From IMG/VR virus record IMGVR_UViG_3300009182_000007, positions 1-40,618 of that record: a stretch of 40,618 nucleotides of DNA; one strand, written 5' to 3'. Within the stretch, counting starts at the first letter, position 1. The number at the start of each line of letters is the position of its first letter. The DNA is from a virus. This document shows positions 8,697-34,008 of the stretch, in pieces. The notes below the pieces were generated by a model, which ran no database searches, was not told the origin of the DNA, and saw only the letters and a list, made by a program, of their open reading frames with translations. Made by a program: the position numbers and the translations under genes.

Positions 8697-10301
8697 ATGG
8701 CTGATTACACACGACTCCGTACCCCGTTTGTAAACATGAGTTTTACACCTGATGTGCCATCTAATGCACTTGGGCCAAATGAATACAACAGCGGACGTAA
8801 TGTAGAAGCCGATGTTCGTGGCATTAAAAAGATTGGCGGAGAACAAGCCATTCTTTCCGCAATCCCAGGCAATGTTGTTTTTGTAGATGGTGGATTTCGT
8901 GGAACATCTACTTGGACATTTATTGCTGCTACTCGTGAAGGAAAATGGTACGCCATAACTTCTGGTGGCATTACCAACATTACTCCTGGTGTCGGAGCAA
9001 ATCCAAACGTATCTCTTTCTGGATACTCTGACAACATTAACATTACAACGTCTTGGGTTGGCAACGTATTCTTTATTAACGATACATTGCGTAATCCAAT
9101 GTATTTTTTATCAACGGCAACAGAAATTTCAATTACACCTGATTCTCAGTGGAATTACACACCTGGTTCTAATGCTACCCGTGCTGCTTTTGTACGAAAC
9201 TATTCTTCTCCCAATGTCGGCAACATTTTGATTGCTGGCAACATTACGCAAGATTTGTCTACCGGAATTACCGCTAATTACCCAACAACTGTTCGTTGGT
9301 CACAAGCGTTCGCCAATACGGGCATTCCTGGCACTTGGGTTCCAACCCTTAGTAACGTAGCCAATGAGGTGGAAGTTCCTGTTCGCGGGCCTCTTGTGGA
9401 CGGTTTCTTCTTAGGTGCTAACTTTTACGTTTGTTCTTATTGGGATACGGTAATCTTTTCTCCTATTTCATATACAAACAGCACGGCTCCTGTATTTGGT
9501 ATTCGCTTGTTCAACCAAGGTCGTGGATTGATTAACAACAATTGCTGGACTAACACTGACCAATACGTCTATGGCGTAGATAGCCGAGACATTTGGGTGT
9601 TTGACGGTTCTAGCTTTAATCCACTAGGCAATCAAAAAGTTCGTGATTACTTCTTCGCCAACTTGAGCCAAACTTACTCAGACCGAATATTTGTTGTAAA
9701 TAACACACAAAAGAATCAGGTTGAGGTGTATTACCCTGATTTAAACTCTACCGGCTGGTGCAACAAAATGCTTGCATGGCGTTATGACATTCAAGTGTGG
9801 AATGCTCCTAAAGACATTGTGAATGCTACAGATGCTTGTGAAGCACCTAAATATGTTGATTCTGATTTCCAGTTTGCTTCTCGTACTATTGTTTATGCAC
9901 AGGGAAGCACCTCAAGTTCTCAATTAATTCAAACCAATATTGGAAACTCGTTTATCAATAACACCGCCATTCCAACATTGTTTGAACGAACAAATATTAA
10001 TTTGCAGACAGATAAAGGGCCAGTTCCGTATTCGTCAAAAGTGTATATACACCGAGTTTTGCCGGAAATTGCTGGTACTGGAAAAATTAACATTACTGTT
10101 GGTGGTGCAAACTCTACGGCACAAACGCCTGTTTATGGTCAAACTGGACAAACCAACATTGTGACGGACAATCCTTGGGTTACTACGCAGCAAAACAATG
10201 TTCGTACTGTTTCTGTTAAAGTAGCATCCAACGATGCAACAGACACATGGAATCTGACCGCATTGAACTGGCAAGCCAACATTGTTGAGGATGCGTTCTA
10301 A
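8697..10301 (+). CDS. Tail nozzle / stabilisation-like protein (beta-propeller type)
   Basis: 534 aa. The start MADYTRLRTPFVNMSFTPDV and the early NEYNSGRNVEADVRGIKKIGG are typical of phage proteins resembling T7 gp12 and P22 gp10, which carry a 'sagn.d....G.rk..G' opening followed by propeller blades. Blade-like units alternate Trp/Tyr-containing strands (WTFIAATREGKWYAIT, WVGNVFFINDTLRNPMYFL, YVYGVDSRDIWVFDGSSF). A Thr/Val-rich C-terminal segment (residues about 440-534) looks like an extra beta domain. It would close the portal-adaptor channel at the tail end. A minor tail protein with propeller fold is the alternative. The stop overlaps the next ATG (TAATG). Confidence 0.65.
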   Translation: MADYTRLRTPFVNMSFTPDVPSNALGPNEYNSGRNVEADVRGIKKIGGEQAILSAIPGNVVFVDGGFRGTSTWTFIAATREGKWYAITSGGITNITPGVGANPNVSLSGYSDNINITTSWVGNVFFINDTLRNPMYFLSTATEISITPDSQWNYTPGSNATRAAFVRNYSSPNVGNILIAGNITQDLSTGITANYPTTVRWSQAFANTGIPGTWVPTLSNVANEVEVPVRGPLVDGFFLGANFYVCSYWDTVIFSPISYTNSTAPVFGIRLFNQGRGLINNNCWTNTDQYVYGVDSRDIWVFDGSSFNPLGNQKVRDYFFANLSQTYSDRIFVVNNTQKNQVEVYYPDLNSTGWCNKMLAWRYDIQVWNAPKDIVNATDACEAPKYVDSDFQFASRTIVYAQGSTSSSQLIQTNIGNSFINNTAIPTLFERTNINLQTDKGPVPYSSKVYIHRVLPEIAGTGKINITVGGANSTAQTPVYGQTGQTNIVTDNPWVTTQQNNVRTVSVKVASNDATDTWNLTALNWQANIVEDAF

Positions 10302-13054
10302 TGCCTTTCGCCCTTGAATCAGACCCGTCAATGTCGGATGTATCCGGCGCAATTAATTACATCCTAAGTAATTTTTCAACTGGCTTGTCTAGTAATTCTG
10401 GCACGGGTGAAATTATTGGCCCTACTGGAATTACCGTTGGTTATCTGTACAAGTATATGGCGATTAAATACGCCGATAACTCTACAGGAACATCTAACTT
10501 TAGTAATTCTCCAACCAATAGGCTGTATTACGGCATTCGTAATTCCAATGACCCAACAGAGTCATCTAACCCTGCTGATTACTCTTGGAATTTAGTTACT
10601 GGTGGTTTTGGTGTAACCAAGTTTCTATATTACATAGCAACTGGTGGAAGACAAATTAACTTTCAGGTAGCAACATCTTTACCTGATACCGGATGGGTAA
10701 TTGACGGTGGTGGGTCAATTGATTTGGATGTTGTCACATCGGGAAATATTCCAGTCATTGTTGACTCGTTCACTGGATACTTTACGCCAAGTATTCTTCA
10801 AGTTTCCCGTTCGGGAAGCCCATTAACGCCATCATTTACGGGCATTGTGCCTGTTATGTATGCTTCAAATAAAAGCGCAATTGTTCCATTTACTAGCGCA
10901 CAAACAGACTCTAACGCTGGTTTTGTAAATAACTCATGGCGTATTGGTAACTCATCCACCACGGGTTATGGTGATATTTCCAAAACCAACATTACGATTG
11001 GCGACCCAACAGATGCTGGTGATTATGCTCAATGGCCTAATCCCACGGCAATGCCAAATAGTCCGGCATACATTACAGTTCCAGTTAGGTACAAAAACAG
11101 TACGGGTGTAGTTGCACAGGCTTCTGTTGCAACAATCCAATTTGTTTATGCTGACCCAGGCGCTAACGGTACAAACGGCACTAACGGAACCAATGGAACC
11201 AACGGAACCAATGGAACAAACGGTACAAATGGTGTAAGCGCATCAAGTATTGATATTTCTGGGTTTACAGGATTTACACAAAATTCAGGTGGTGCTTACA
11301 CCCCAATTAATGCAACTTTAAGTGCTGTACCGTTTAATATTACTAGCCCAACATATTCTTGGGCAATATCTGGCGCAACTCCTACAAGTTCTACCGCATC
11401 TTCTGTAGTAGTAACTCCAACATCTTCCGCAACGTCCGTTGTAGTGACGTTAACCGTCAGTGGAACAAACCTTGGTTCTCCGTTAAGTAAAACCATCACA
11501 ATGCCCATTGTGTTTAATGGTGCAGCGGGACAAGCTGGTTCCAACGGCGTAATGTCGGCATTCCCAACCATTTACCAATGGACAGGAAGTTCTACGCCAC
11601 CAACTCGACCAACTACAACTTCTACTTACACTTGGTCAACCGGCGCTTATTCTGCTCCATCTGGATGGTCAACAACCGCACCTAGCAATACAACTGTAGG
11701 CAATTACCTTTGGTCAATTACTTACCCGTTAAATACTTCTGCAACTACCACTACGTCTACTCTTGATTGGACGGATGTTGCTAACCCTATTCGAGCAATT
11801 GCTTACAACGGTTTGAATGGCGCAACTGGTGCTGCTGGTACTAACGGCACAAACGGTACAAATGGACTTAATGGCACTCGTACTGCTGTTTTGGATATGT
11901 ACCAATGGTCATCCACATTGCCATCTACTTATCCATCTGGATCGTCTACTTATACTTGGGCAACTGGAACTTTTACAACCCCTGGAACTCCTAATGGATG
12001 GACGACAACACCTGGTACTTATGTTGCCGGACAGACACTTTATGTAATTCGTCAGACATACTCCGACACATCTACCAGTTCAACTTCATCGGTTACTTGG
12101 GCTTCTACAACTCCGTTTCCTGCTGGTGCTGCTGGCTCTAATGGAGCAACTGGAGCAACTGGTGCTAACGGACAACGTGTAGGTGTCCTAGAAGTTTACC
12201 AATGGGCTGCTTCAGCGCCGTCAACTTACCCATCTGGCACATCTACCTACACATGGGCTACAGGCTCGTTTACAGCCCCTTCTGTGCCTAATGGATGGGC
12301 TTTGCTTCCAGGTGCTGCTGTCGCTGGTCAAACGCTTTGGGCAATCAATACGATTGTTTCTGACTCCAACACAACCCCAAATTCCACGGCATCTTGGACA
12401 AGCACAACTGTTTATGCTGTTGGATATGCTGGAACCAATGGCTCCAATGGAACAAATGGAACAAATGGTTCTAATGGCTCCAATGGTGCTGCTACTTTTG
12501 TTATTACCCGAGTAGCAAACGATAGTTCGGCCCCAACAAACGCTGAAGTTTCTGCCTTACTTGGTCGCAATCCAGTAGCGGGGGACATTGTTACTGTTAG
12601 CTACAACAACTACAACAACGCTACCATTTACCGTTATACAACATCTTGGGTATTGTTTAACACTTACATCACCGGAAGTTTGATTGTTCAAAACACAATT
12701 ACTTCAGACAAACTTTCTGTTACTTCTTTGTCTGCAATAAGCGCAAATCTTGGTAACATTACCGCTGGTGATTTACAAATTGGAAGTAGTCCTGTAATTA
12801 GCGGGACAACAATGACTGGTTCTGGAACTCATTTATACTCTGATGGGCGAATTGTTTCTGGAAACTCATCTAATAATTTAGTATTTGATGGAAATACTTT
12901 GTACTTAAATTTGCCATTTTTACAAAATCCACAAACCATTACTCAAAATGCTTCCGTGGCTTCTTCAAGTAATGCTTTAAGTATTGGCCCTATTGATATA
13001 AATACTGGAAATATCGTTACTGTTCCAAGCGGAAGTGTTTGGACTACTGTTTAA
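10301..13054 (+). CDS. Long modular tail fibre with collagen-like and lambda J-like parts
   Basis: 917 aa, coupled to the previous gene. The order seen is as follows. There is an N-terminal domain (1-285) and an Asn-Gly-Thr triplet run (about 287-312) like collagen-type phage fibres. A beta domain (about 313-405) follows. Then come three copies of a '..YQW....P..YP.G.STYTWATG.F..P..PNGW' module starting near residues 417, 529 and 626 and separated by further NGT or GATGA runs. A second Asn-Gly run lies near 710-729. A segment with TSDKLSVTSLSAISANLGNITAGDLQIG resembles the C-terminal part of lambda J-type host-specificity proteins. It ends in a short tip domain. Such fibres trimerise and bind the host surface. 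The modules are likely exchangeable with other phages. Confidence 0.75.
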   Translation: MPFALESDPSMSDVSGAINYILSNFSTGLSSNSGTGEIIGPTGITVGYLYKYMAIKYADNSTGTSNFSNSPTNRLYYGIRNSNDPTESSNPADYSWNLVTGGFGVTKFLYYIATGGRQINFQVATSLPDTGWVIDGGGSIDLDVVTSGNIPVIVDSFTGYFTPSILQVSRSGSPLTPSFTGIVPVMYASNKSAIVPFTSAQTDSNAGFVNNSWRIGNSSTTGYGDISKTNITIGDPTDAGDYAQWPNPTAMPNSPAYITVPVRYKNSTGVVAQASVATIQFVYADPGANGTNGTNGTNGTNGTNGTNGTNGVSASSIDISGFTGFTQNSGGAYTPINATLSAVPFNITSPTYSWAISGATPTSSTASSVVVTPTSSATSVVVTLTVSGTNLGSPLSKTITMPIVFNGAAGQAGSNGVMSAFPTIYQWTGSSTPPTRPTTTSTYTWSTGAYSAPSGWSTTAPSNTTVGNYLWSITYPLNTSATTTTSTLDWTDVANPIRAIAYNGLNGATGAAGTNGTNGTNGLNGTRTAVLDMYQWSSTLPSTYPSGSSTYTWATGTFTTPGTPNGWTTTPGTYVAGQTLYVIRQTYSDTSTSSTSSVTWASTTPFPAGAAGSNGATGATGANGQRVGVLEVYQWAASAPSTYPSGTSTYTWATGSFTAPSVPNGWALLPGAAVAGQTLWAINTIVSDSNTTPNSTASWTSTTVYAVGYAGTNGSNGTNGTNGSNGSNGAATFVITRVANDSSAPTNAEVSALLGRNPVAGDIVTVSYNNYNNATIYRYTTSWVLFNTYITGSLIVQNTITSDKLSVTSLSAISANLGNITAGDLQIGSSPVISGTTMTGSGTHLYSDGRIVSGNSSNNLVFDGNTLYLNLPFLQNPQTITQNASVASSSNALSIGPIDINTGNIVTVPSGSVWTTV
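11164..11235 (+). repeat. 9-nt tandem repeat coding for Asn-Gly-Thr
   Basis: About eight tandem 9-nt units (consensus aacggaacc / aatggaaca) encode a collagen-like NGT run. Unit number probably varies among relatives and could set fibre length. Related shorter runs occur near 11840-11870 and 12430-12490. Confidence 0.85.
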
Positions 13055-29622: not shown

Positions 29623-29867
29623 TGAACAAATCTATTGAACAACGAGCCTATCAAGCATTGGTACGGGAAATGGAAAACGAAATTAAAGTCGTGGAAGGCC
29701 AGTACGAAAAAGAATTTGCACGGGTTTGTATGCTCATCCGTGTCATAGCGGAATTAGTCCATGATCCCAAGTCAGTCATTCAAGAGGTTCAGGATCGGTT
29801 AAACAAAGATGGTGATATGGACAACAATTTTGTTCAATTCTTTTTAGAAAACTATGAGGTGGAATAA
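29622..29867 (+). CDS. 81-aa helical protein, unknown
   Basis: The start is the ATG at 29622 in the TAATG overlap (MNKSIEQRAYQALVREMENE); the longer frame from 29577 lies inside the upstream gene. A charged coiled coil (NEIKVVEGQYEKEFARVCML) is followed by an acidic C-terminus. The stop overlaps the next start (TAATG). Confidence 0.7.
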   Translation: MNKSIEQRAYQALVREMENEIKVVEGQYEKEFARVCMLIRVIAELVHDPKSVIQEVQDRLNKDGDMDNNFVQFFLENYEVE

Positions 29868-30037
29868 TGCTTAAACAAGTTAATCCTCCCCGTCCTGAGC
29901 CACCTTATTGGGTATGCACTAAATGCAATTGGCCTTTCCAAGCACTACAAGAAGCAAATAAGCATTCATGTGGGCAAGATAAGCCACCAAAGCCAGCATT
30001 TAGAAGTTATACCAAGCGCATAGAAATGCGTATATAA
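29867..30037 (+). CDS. 56-aa zinc-finger-like protein
   Basis: Starts MLKQVNPPRPEPPYWVCTKC and has C17, C20, H33 and C35, a likely one-zinc site, then a basic tail (FRSYTKRIEMRI). It starts inside the previous stop (TAATG). Its last codons contain the TATAAT box of the downstream RNA-like region. Confidence 0.7.
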   Translation: MLKQVNPPRPEPPYWVCTKCNWPFQALQEANKHSCGQDKPPKPAFRSYTKRIEMRI

Positions 30038-30038
30038 T
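30033..30038 (+). promoter_or_regulatory. TATAAT -10 box in front of the structured region
   Basis: A perfect TATAAT (30033-30038) overlaps the stop of the 56-aa gene. No strong -35 stands at 17 bp (TTATAC lies 20 bp away). The predicted start near 30045 falls just before the first stem (30049-30123), as expected for the 5' end of a structured RNA. Confidence 0.5.
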
Positions 30039-30044
30039 TTCCCC

Positions 30045-30430
30045 GTCAAGTGCTGCCACACAAGACAAAACATGAGGCCATTTTCTCATGCGTTACTCCG
30101 AAAGGAACTAGTGTGGCAGCATTAGAACGCAGTAGAAAGTGGCTTTTTTGCGTTCTAGGCCGTCAGGGCGCGATAGCAAATGGTCTGCATGGACTGAACC
30201 CGATAAACACCGCACATCGACACACCCCGATGCAAAAGGCGACCAGCGTTGGTTAACCGACTGGTAAAGCACAAGATAACTCAGGTGGAAACTAGGTCTT
30301 GTGTATAAGTGAATTAACCCGTCCAGCGCAGCTTGGATATGTATATTGGTTTGTATGGTTTTGGTAGGCATTGGATACATATTTACATATTGGAGCAGGT
30401 GAGATAAGCCCTCTTATCCACCCTAGGATT
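30045..30430 (+). ncRNA. Candidate structured non-coding RNA, no known family recognised
   Basis: This stretch has no convincing ORF in any frame but many strong inverted repeats. P1: tgctgccacac (30051-30061) with gtgtggcagca (30111-30121), 11 perfect pairs plus A-U and G-U extension. Inside it are catgag/ctcatg (30071-30076, 30085-30090) and a cc-GAAA-gg hairpin (GAAA at 30100-30103). P2: tagaacgca (30123-30131) with tgcgttcta (30149-30157), extendable by aaag/cttt. P3: accag/ctggt (30242-30246, 30261-30265). P4: cacaaga/tcttgtg (30270-30276, 30297-30303). P5: atatgtat/atacatat (30337-30344, 30375-30382). P6: ggtg-a-gataag/cttatc-cacc (30398-30422). It is not a tRNA, tmRNA, RNase P RNA or 6S RNA by the motifs I know. 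It could be a free RNA or a long structured leader of the nuclease gene that follows. Confidence 0.6.
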
Positions 30431-30450
30431 AACTTTGGCTGGAGAATGAT

Positions 30451-33483: not shown

Positions 33484-34008
33484 ATGGAATCTCAACGTGA
33501 GTGGAAATTAGCGCATCCTCTTGAAGATGTGACTGAGATCGTCAACATGGCGGATCAATACTTTGTGGATACTGGAGGCATTCTCCAGAAGAACAAAGAG
33601 ATATTCCGTAAGAATGTTACTGTTGCGTCTACTGTCCAACTGTTTGACAAGACCAAAGAGTTCTTGGCAGTGTGTCGGGAAACCAAAGAGGATAGTGAGC
33701 GAATGCTGGCTTACTGCTGGTTTGACAGGTTTGGGTATACGACCTACTCCCACGAAGAGATTTCCAACGCCAAATTCCACCATGTTGAACCAGACCTGTC
33801 TGCAAGGCTCAAAATACGCCTTATTGACGAAATGATTGACCAACATATACTATGGGCAGCAAATTGTGGAATTCCGGTCATTTGCTCTACCAGCATTCGA
33901 CCTGAACACGATGTGTTTATGAGGCTTCACAAACGGCGTGGGTTTACTGTCAACGGCTCCTATGCTTGGATACGGACTGAAGAAGGATTGAAATGCTTGA
34001 CGAAATAA
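33484..34008 (+). CDS. GNAT-like acetyltransferase-type protein at the head of the late operon
   Basis: 174 aa from the ATG at 33484, with GGAG 7 nt upstream; the frame reaching back to 33334 has no site. The C-terminal end (HKRRGFTVNGSYAWIRTEEG) and the central strand-rich part (EFLAVCRETKEDSERMLAYCWFD) resemble the GNAT-fold proteins that some podoviruses carry before their terminase genes. The acetyl-CoA loop (Q/RxxGxG/A) is not recognisable, so an active enzyme is uncertain. It may be a structural or regulatory relative. Confidence 0.55.
   Translation: MESQREWKLAHPLEDVTEIVNMADQYFVDTGGILQKNKEIFRKNVTVASTVQLFDKTKEFLAVCRETKEDSERMLAYCWFDRFGYTTYSHEEISNAKFHHVEPDLSARLKIRLIDEMIDQHILWAANCGIPVICSTSIRPEHDVFMRLHKRRGFTVNGSYAWIRTEEGLKCLTK

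Follow-up and report, generated by a model that had tools for sequence, protein, structure and literature searches.

The stretch of DNA analyzed here, referred to as the window, comprises the 40,618 nucleotides of the IMG/VR virus record IMGVR_UViG_3300009182_000007. In it, a 56-aa ORF (29867-30037) and a nuclease gene of the YbcO/HNH type (start 30451) flank a region that a first-pass annotation had proposed to encode a novel structured RNA of the phage, preceded by a TATAAT box of its own. The reported TATAAT hexamer was confirmed in the sequence, and the stop codon of the 56-aa ORF shares bases with it. The features of the RNA are collected in Table 1.

Table 1. Features of the RNA locus, in coordinates of the window.
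Feature	Positions	Strand	Details
-10 box TATAAT, predicted promoter of the RNA	30033-30038	+	fixed spacing in relatives
RNA unit, promoter to conserved tail	~30044-30436	+	~390-420 nt
5' domain	30044-30148	+	hairpin A (30045-47/30064-66), pseudoknot with hairpin B, hairpin B, then U-tract
Loop-loop pseudoknot, 5' arm	30050-30061	+	partner 30111-30121
Loop-loop pseudoknot, 3' arm	30111-30121	+	partner 30051-30061
Hairpin B, 5' arm	30077-30085	+	3' arm 30135-30143; inner helix 30089-94/30126-31
Hairpin B 3' arm and U-tract (30144-30149)	30135-30149	+	terminator-like
Core hairpin 30161-63/30170-72	30161-30172	+	loop GGG 30166-68 pairs with CCC 30199-201 (pseudoknot)
Hexaloop hairpin GGUC-UGCAUG-GACU	30182-30195	+	conserved hexaloop UG[CA]AUG, 4-bp stem
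Two-helix hairpin 30211-13/30239-41 and 30215-19/30228-32	30211-30241	+	CACCC in loop; double changes at 8/8 pairs
Helix 30242-46/30261-65	30242-30265	+	double changes at 3/5 pairs
Helix 30251-56/30314-19 enclosing helix 30269-77/30296-304	30251-30319	+	double changes at 15/15 pairs
Small hairpin 30320-21/30327-28	30320-30328	+	100% paired; G-C to C-G swap in 10/32
Variable-length hairpin 30337-46/30381-90	30337-30390	+	inverted repeat in the window
3' hairpin GGUG-A-GAUAAG/CUUAUC-CACC, then conserved tail to ~30436	30398-30422	+	

The region had been described as holding no credible gene, and the comparison of 54 relatives agreed with this: the best frame across the core was open in only 11 of them (264 nt), and no protein-coding frame conserved across the core was found in the set. 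When the single sequence was folded, the + strand of 30044-30436 outperformed 99 of 100 shuffles (z -2.85), whereas the - strand of the same region showed no such excess (z -0.84). Because of this difference, and because many G-U pairs of the core are conserved on the + strand, + was taken as the strand of the RNA. Neither ARAGORN nor Rfam called a tRNA or tmRNA in the RNA region, in line with the earlier failure to recognize such motifs, and the region matched no Rfam family at the gathering score. The Rfam scans covered the window at the gathering threshold and, with cut-offs of E<=1 to 10, the RNA region together with 15 other loci; their near misses were either models of eukaryotic miRNAs and snoRNAs or sites outside the RNA. 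No prior description of the RNA was found in the literature available as open-licence papers.

Homologues were retrieved mainly from environmental phages. A 17-mer of the core matched at least 119 IMG/VR contigs. The flanks listed for these matches agreed in context, and a set of 54 distinct representatives was retained from them. Two further patterns taken from elsewhere in the RNA matched 75 and 32 IMG/VR stretches, the 32 overlapping earlier loci, and the family was found in more than 200 IMG/VR contigs overall. The first homologue set was picked by the exact 17-mer, so the invariance of this block was built in, and it was broken by unbiased retrieval: a search with a covariance model (R1) through 32 full phage records, chosen for a related portal protein, found the RNA in six, and three of these six (L230-L232) represent a subtype with another sequence in place of the 17-mer block. 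Among named phages, the RNA was found in a single record, MW202484.1 (Manatee Spring), which is 76% identical over 30129-30336 in a distant blastn search and encodes a portal protein 73% identical to that of the window. In this record, the RNA region (33533-33892; L002:3946-4305) is annotated as a 119-aa hypothetical protein, UOF77725.1, which is probably not a true gene and lies on the RNA.

The search for cellular copies gave a different picture. Among 84,980 bacterial and archaeal genomes, nine matches to an 18-mer were obtained, all in unrelated context; as possible copies they were rejected, being without RNA context and as frequent as chance predicts. A single R1 match (28 bits) in 399 genomes of the phylum of G002 was also rejected, as no conserved motif was found near the best 20-mer match. 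Similarly, a blastn search of a plasmid collection found no copy, and these cellular and plasmid searches leave room for divergent copies in cells. The closest hint of a host came from the loci of the capsid type, where the capsid protein is 79% identical to that of a Methylophilales phage.

Compensatory changes among relatives, which had been suggested as a check on the proposed stems, were strong in both the core and the 5' domain. For the core (30161-30336), a structure built by hand was evaluated on an alignment (A2) of 32 relatives, where 96.9% of the cells were paired, compared to 75.0% after shuffling and 27-37% when the partners were slid by one to three columns. Changes on both sides were observed at 28 of the 38 pairs; relatedness of the sequences inflates such counts, but given the slid control and the number of pair types it is not a convincing explanation of the covariation. 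The helix 30251-56/30314-19 and the helix it encloses were 100% and 93.8% paired, respectively, and the former interleaves with the helix 30242-46/30261-65 to form a pseudoknot.

Two more elements of the core emerged from comparing its subtypes. In the hexaloop hairpin, all 88 cells of the stem were paired, and double changes occurred in 31 cells (8.9 in shuffles). The second element is the pseudoknot between the loop of the first core hairpin and 30199-201, which is GGG/CCC in the window and takes the forms CCC/GGG, UCC/GGA, GAG/CUC, and UGACU/AGUCA in relatives, a match reached in none of 5,000 permutations. A closing helix predicted by RNAalifold between AGGG (30165-168) and CCCU (30421-424) was dropped because the GGG pairs with 30199-201 instead; its pairing is invariant, and the second subtype keeps the CCCU without the AGGG.

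In the 5' domain, 90.6% of the cells were paired, compared to 77.5% in shuffles, with double changes at 21 pairs (11.1 in shuffles). Hairpin A, with which the domain begins, is GUUG/CAAC in most relatives and GUC/GAC in the window, and its loop pairs with the interior of hairpin B. This loop-loop pairing averaged 7.6 bp within a sequence, compared to 4.1 bp between sequences, and was not equaled in any of 2,000 permutations. The 11-bp inverted repeat of the first-pass annotation (30051-30061/30111-30121) corresponds to it, and while the perfect pairing is real, it forms a loop-loop, or H-type, pseudoknot rather than a simple hairpin, interleaving with the helix 30077-30085/30135-30143 that single-sequence folding missed. 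Hairpin B and its inner helix were 98.6% and 95.8% paired, with double changes at 14 of 20 pairs, and the GAAA-capped hairpin noted earlier was located as a mini-hairpin at 30097-30106. A 9-bp stem (30123-30131/30149-30157) is also present in the window, but it occurs only in this phage and its near twins; it was rejected as part of the fold, being absent in relatives and clashing with a conserved helix.

Taken together, the RNA holds three pseudoknots, one in the 5' domain and two in the core. The initial view of simple, separate stems had to be amended for the pseudoknots and for the one listed stem that is not conserved; the majority of the conserved helices were absent from the initial list of stems. 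On this comparative evidence, 30044-30436 almost certainly represents a real, conserved structured RNA.

Three versions of the 5' domain were distinguished. The second is dissimilar in sequence and retains the interleaved pairing (9-15 bp), and the third was recognized by eye in L018 and L043. In all three, a G/C-rich helix and a run of U's close the domain, in the manner of an intrinsic terminator. Since the core subtypes and the 5'-domain versions occur in several combinations, the RNA is modular. In three loci (L114, L023, and L076), an insert of ~165 nt was observed between the U-tract and the core. The insert of L114 folds into a tRNA-like cloverleaf carried by a long stem (z -4.3), in which one hairpin resembles a D-arm and UCUGG-UUCGAAU-CCAGA forms the T-arm, and no tRNA was called in the tRNA-like insert by ARAGORN.

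The two hairpins of the 3' part were compared by eye. Hairpins that differ in both sequence and length occupy the position of 30337-30390 in relatives, and the 3' hairpin occurs in variants such as GGAUAG/CUAUCC, GGUUAG/CUAACC, and GAUAAG/CUUAUC. It is followed by a tail, YCACCCUnGG...nUG, in 53 of the 54 representatives. An A/G/T-TG triplet lies 10-12 nt past the CACCCU (~30433-30435 in the window) in 53 of 53 representatives. As the start of a downstream gene, this triplet was rejected, as long frames numbered 15, 19, and 5 in the three frames, with no frame preferred.

The position of the promoter is supported by comparison across relatives. A -10-like hexamer with four to six of six matches was found 5-6 bases 5' of the first conserved helix in most relatives, and a TTGACA-like box lies 16-18 nt upstream of it in many. 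A promoter score of at least 9 of 12 was reached in 30 of 38 relatives, compared to 11.6% of shuffles. The -35 box is weak in the window (3/6) and near consensus in many relatives, and a promoter scan of the window sequence alone called no promoter at the 5' end of the RNA. In several loci of the capsid type (e.g., L027, L081, and L131), a terminator-like hairpin with a T-run lies directly 5' of the RNA promoter, and a second promoter-like pair is found in capsid-type loci between the 3' end of the RNA and the major capsid gene. No clear terminator was seen 3' of the RNA. The fixed-distance promoter, together with the covariation and the absence from Rfam, supports the first-pass proposal of a novel structured RNA under a -10 box of its own.

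The genomic context varied considerably among relatives. In L006, the counterpart of the window's upstream gene for a 106-aa protein runs directly into the nuclease gene, the two overlapping at ATGTGA, and the RNA is missing from the junction; the proteins of these flanking genes are 92% and 86% identical to those of the window. The same two genes nearly abut without the RNA in L154, as well as in L014, where a copy of the RNA is present 2.6 kb away. Where these two genes meet (29623-30449 in the window), the window carries two small ORFs and the RNA, L006 nothing, L154 nearly nothing, and L005 an unrelated ORF, so that their junction looks like a site of variable cargo. Elsewhere, the RNA neighbors a replication initiation gene, a gene for a Cro-like regulator, or terminase and PAPS reductase genes, or lies between the scaffold and major capsid genes, and it is often located between the Cro-like gene and the replication gene. 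Both the modularity and the patchy presence of the RNA are shown by comparison.

Phage morons are accessory genes that are inserted between genes adjacent in relatives, carry their own promoter, and are patchily present. An own promoter, insertion between adjoining genes, and patchy presence were all found for the RNA, the difference being that the product here would be RNA and not protein. Of the two roles first suggested, a free RNA or a leader of the nuclease gene, the former is favored, as the nuclease of most relatives has no RNA at this site and most copies of the RNA precede other genes. A free-standing, moron-like RNA fits better than a nuclease leader because the RNA is accessory and its flanking genes vary, and a free-standing accessory RNA gene acting in trans is accordingly the likelier reading, with room left for others. 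A noncoding RNA gene would be transcribed from its own sigma-70-type promoter into an RNA of ~390-420 nt, which would consist of an interchangeable 5' domain, ending in the terminator-like hairpin and U-tract, and the conserved core. It would be carried as accessory cargo between genes that adjoin in relatives. The folded RNA, or an RNA-protein particle, may then act on host or phage gene expression during infection, with the hairpin and U-tract possibly serving as a conditional terminator that sets the amount of full-length RNA. Tentatively, the RNA might exemplify a new class of modular, ornate 'RNA morons', gained and lost by phages as accessory cargo. Such RNAs would assemble into RNA-only or RNA-protein particles, in some cases with a tRNA-like domain on display, and would target the host RNA polymerase, the ribosomes, or defence in trans. 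Some observations stand against a free-standing RNA: it lies on the same strand as its neighbors, often just 5' of a start codon, with the NTG at fixed spacing; no clear terminator was seen past its 3' end; and the terminator-like hairpin within it sits uneasily with a single free transcript.

The shared strand, the nearby start codon, and the NTG spacing could be expected of a cis-acting leader, i.e., an extended, structured 5' UTR that acts on the next gene, at the level of translation or transcription, as a riboswitch-like element or translation enhancer and ends at a start codon in the tail. The RNA shares the strand of the next gene, whose start is often within 20 nt, and the fixed-spacing triplet opens a frame of at least 40 codons in 15 of 53 representatives. 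However, long frames are no more frequent in frame 0 (15) than in frame 1 (19), the genes that follow are not related to one another (replication protein, nuclease, terminase-region genes, and capsid), the nuclease is found without the RNA in relatives, and the capsid-type loci place another promoter-like pair between the RNA and the gene. A leader, although the main rival, is thus considered unlikely.

Cis antitermination of the put type, where the nascent RNA would bind RNA polymerase and carry it through its own U-tract and later terminators, appears less probable still. The put RNA of HK022 is ~70 nt long with two stem-loops and acts in cis on the early operons (PMC9378689). The frequent location between Cro-like and replication genes is comparable, given that putR lies ~270 nt past the PR start (PMC9378689), and the internal terminator-like hairpin is retained in the 5'-domain versions examined. 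The likeness, apart from both being structured phage RNAs near early regulator or replication genes, is one of location only: the unit described here is six times the length of put, its conserved ~400 nt with three pseudoknots do not correspond to a ~70-nt, two-stem element, it has its own promoter, it occurs in a minority of related phages, and some copies precede a capsid gene with its own promoter-like site. A structured DNA element (e.g., an origin of replication or a site for packaging) would suit an intergenic region with many inverted repeats, but it is highly improbable given the abundant G-U pairs retained on one strand, the pseudoknots, the fixed-spacing promoter, the patchy presence, and the variable location.

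Among known RNAs, GOLLD and ROOL would be the nearest in style to the proposed free-standing RNA. GOLLD is a large ornate RNA of phages and prophages with a conserved 3' region, a less conserved 5' region, and kissing loops, and its linker sometimes contains tRNAs; ROOL, likewise a large ornate RNA of phages, combines pseudoknots with kissing loops and has no known function (PMC12286853). The tRNA-like insert in three loci of the new RNA recalls GOLLD. In contrast, GOLLD often exceeds 800 nt while the new RNA has ~390-420 nt in the window, and the new RNA was not seen in the bacterial genomes searched. The GOLLD covariance model had no match in the window, the RNA region, or the 15 other loci, nor did the ROOL model in the same Rfam scans. 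Large structured RNAs are rare in bacteria and phages, and GOLLD and ROOL are still without functions; the present family, which is not in Rfam, consists of smaller, modular RNAs and is common among environmental phages. The empty sites in close relatives provide natural pairs with and without the RNA, so its effect on infection is directly testable. If the free-standing reading holds, accessory cargo of phages can consist purely of RNA, and genes of this kind are overlooked by protein-based annotation.

Two further observations were made in the course of the analysis. Just 3' of the RNA in L050 (3597-3670), a near-threshold Rfam match to the int-alpA RNA was obtained, with 34.2 bits against a cut-off of 35.8. 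In the structural region of the window, a protein of 917 aa (10301-13054) matched the collagen-like repeat (Pfam PF01391).
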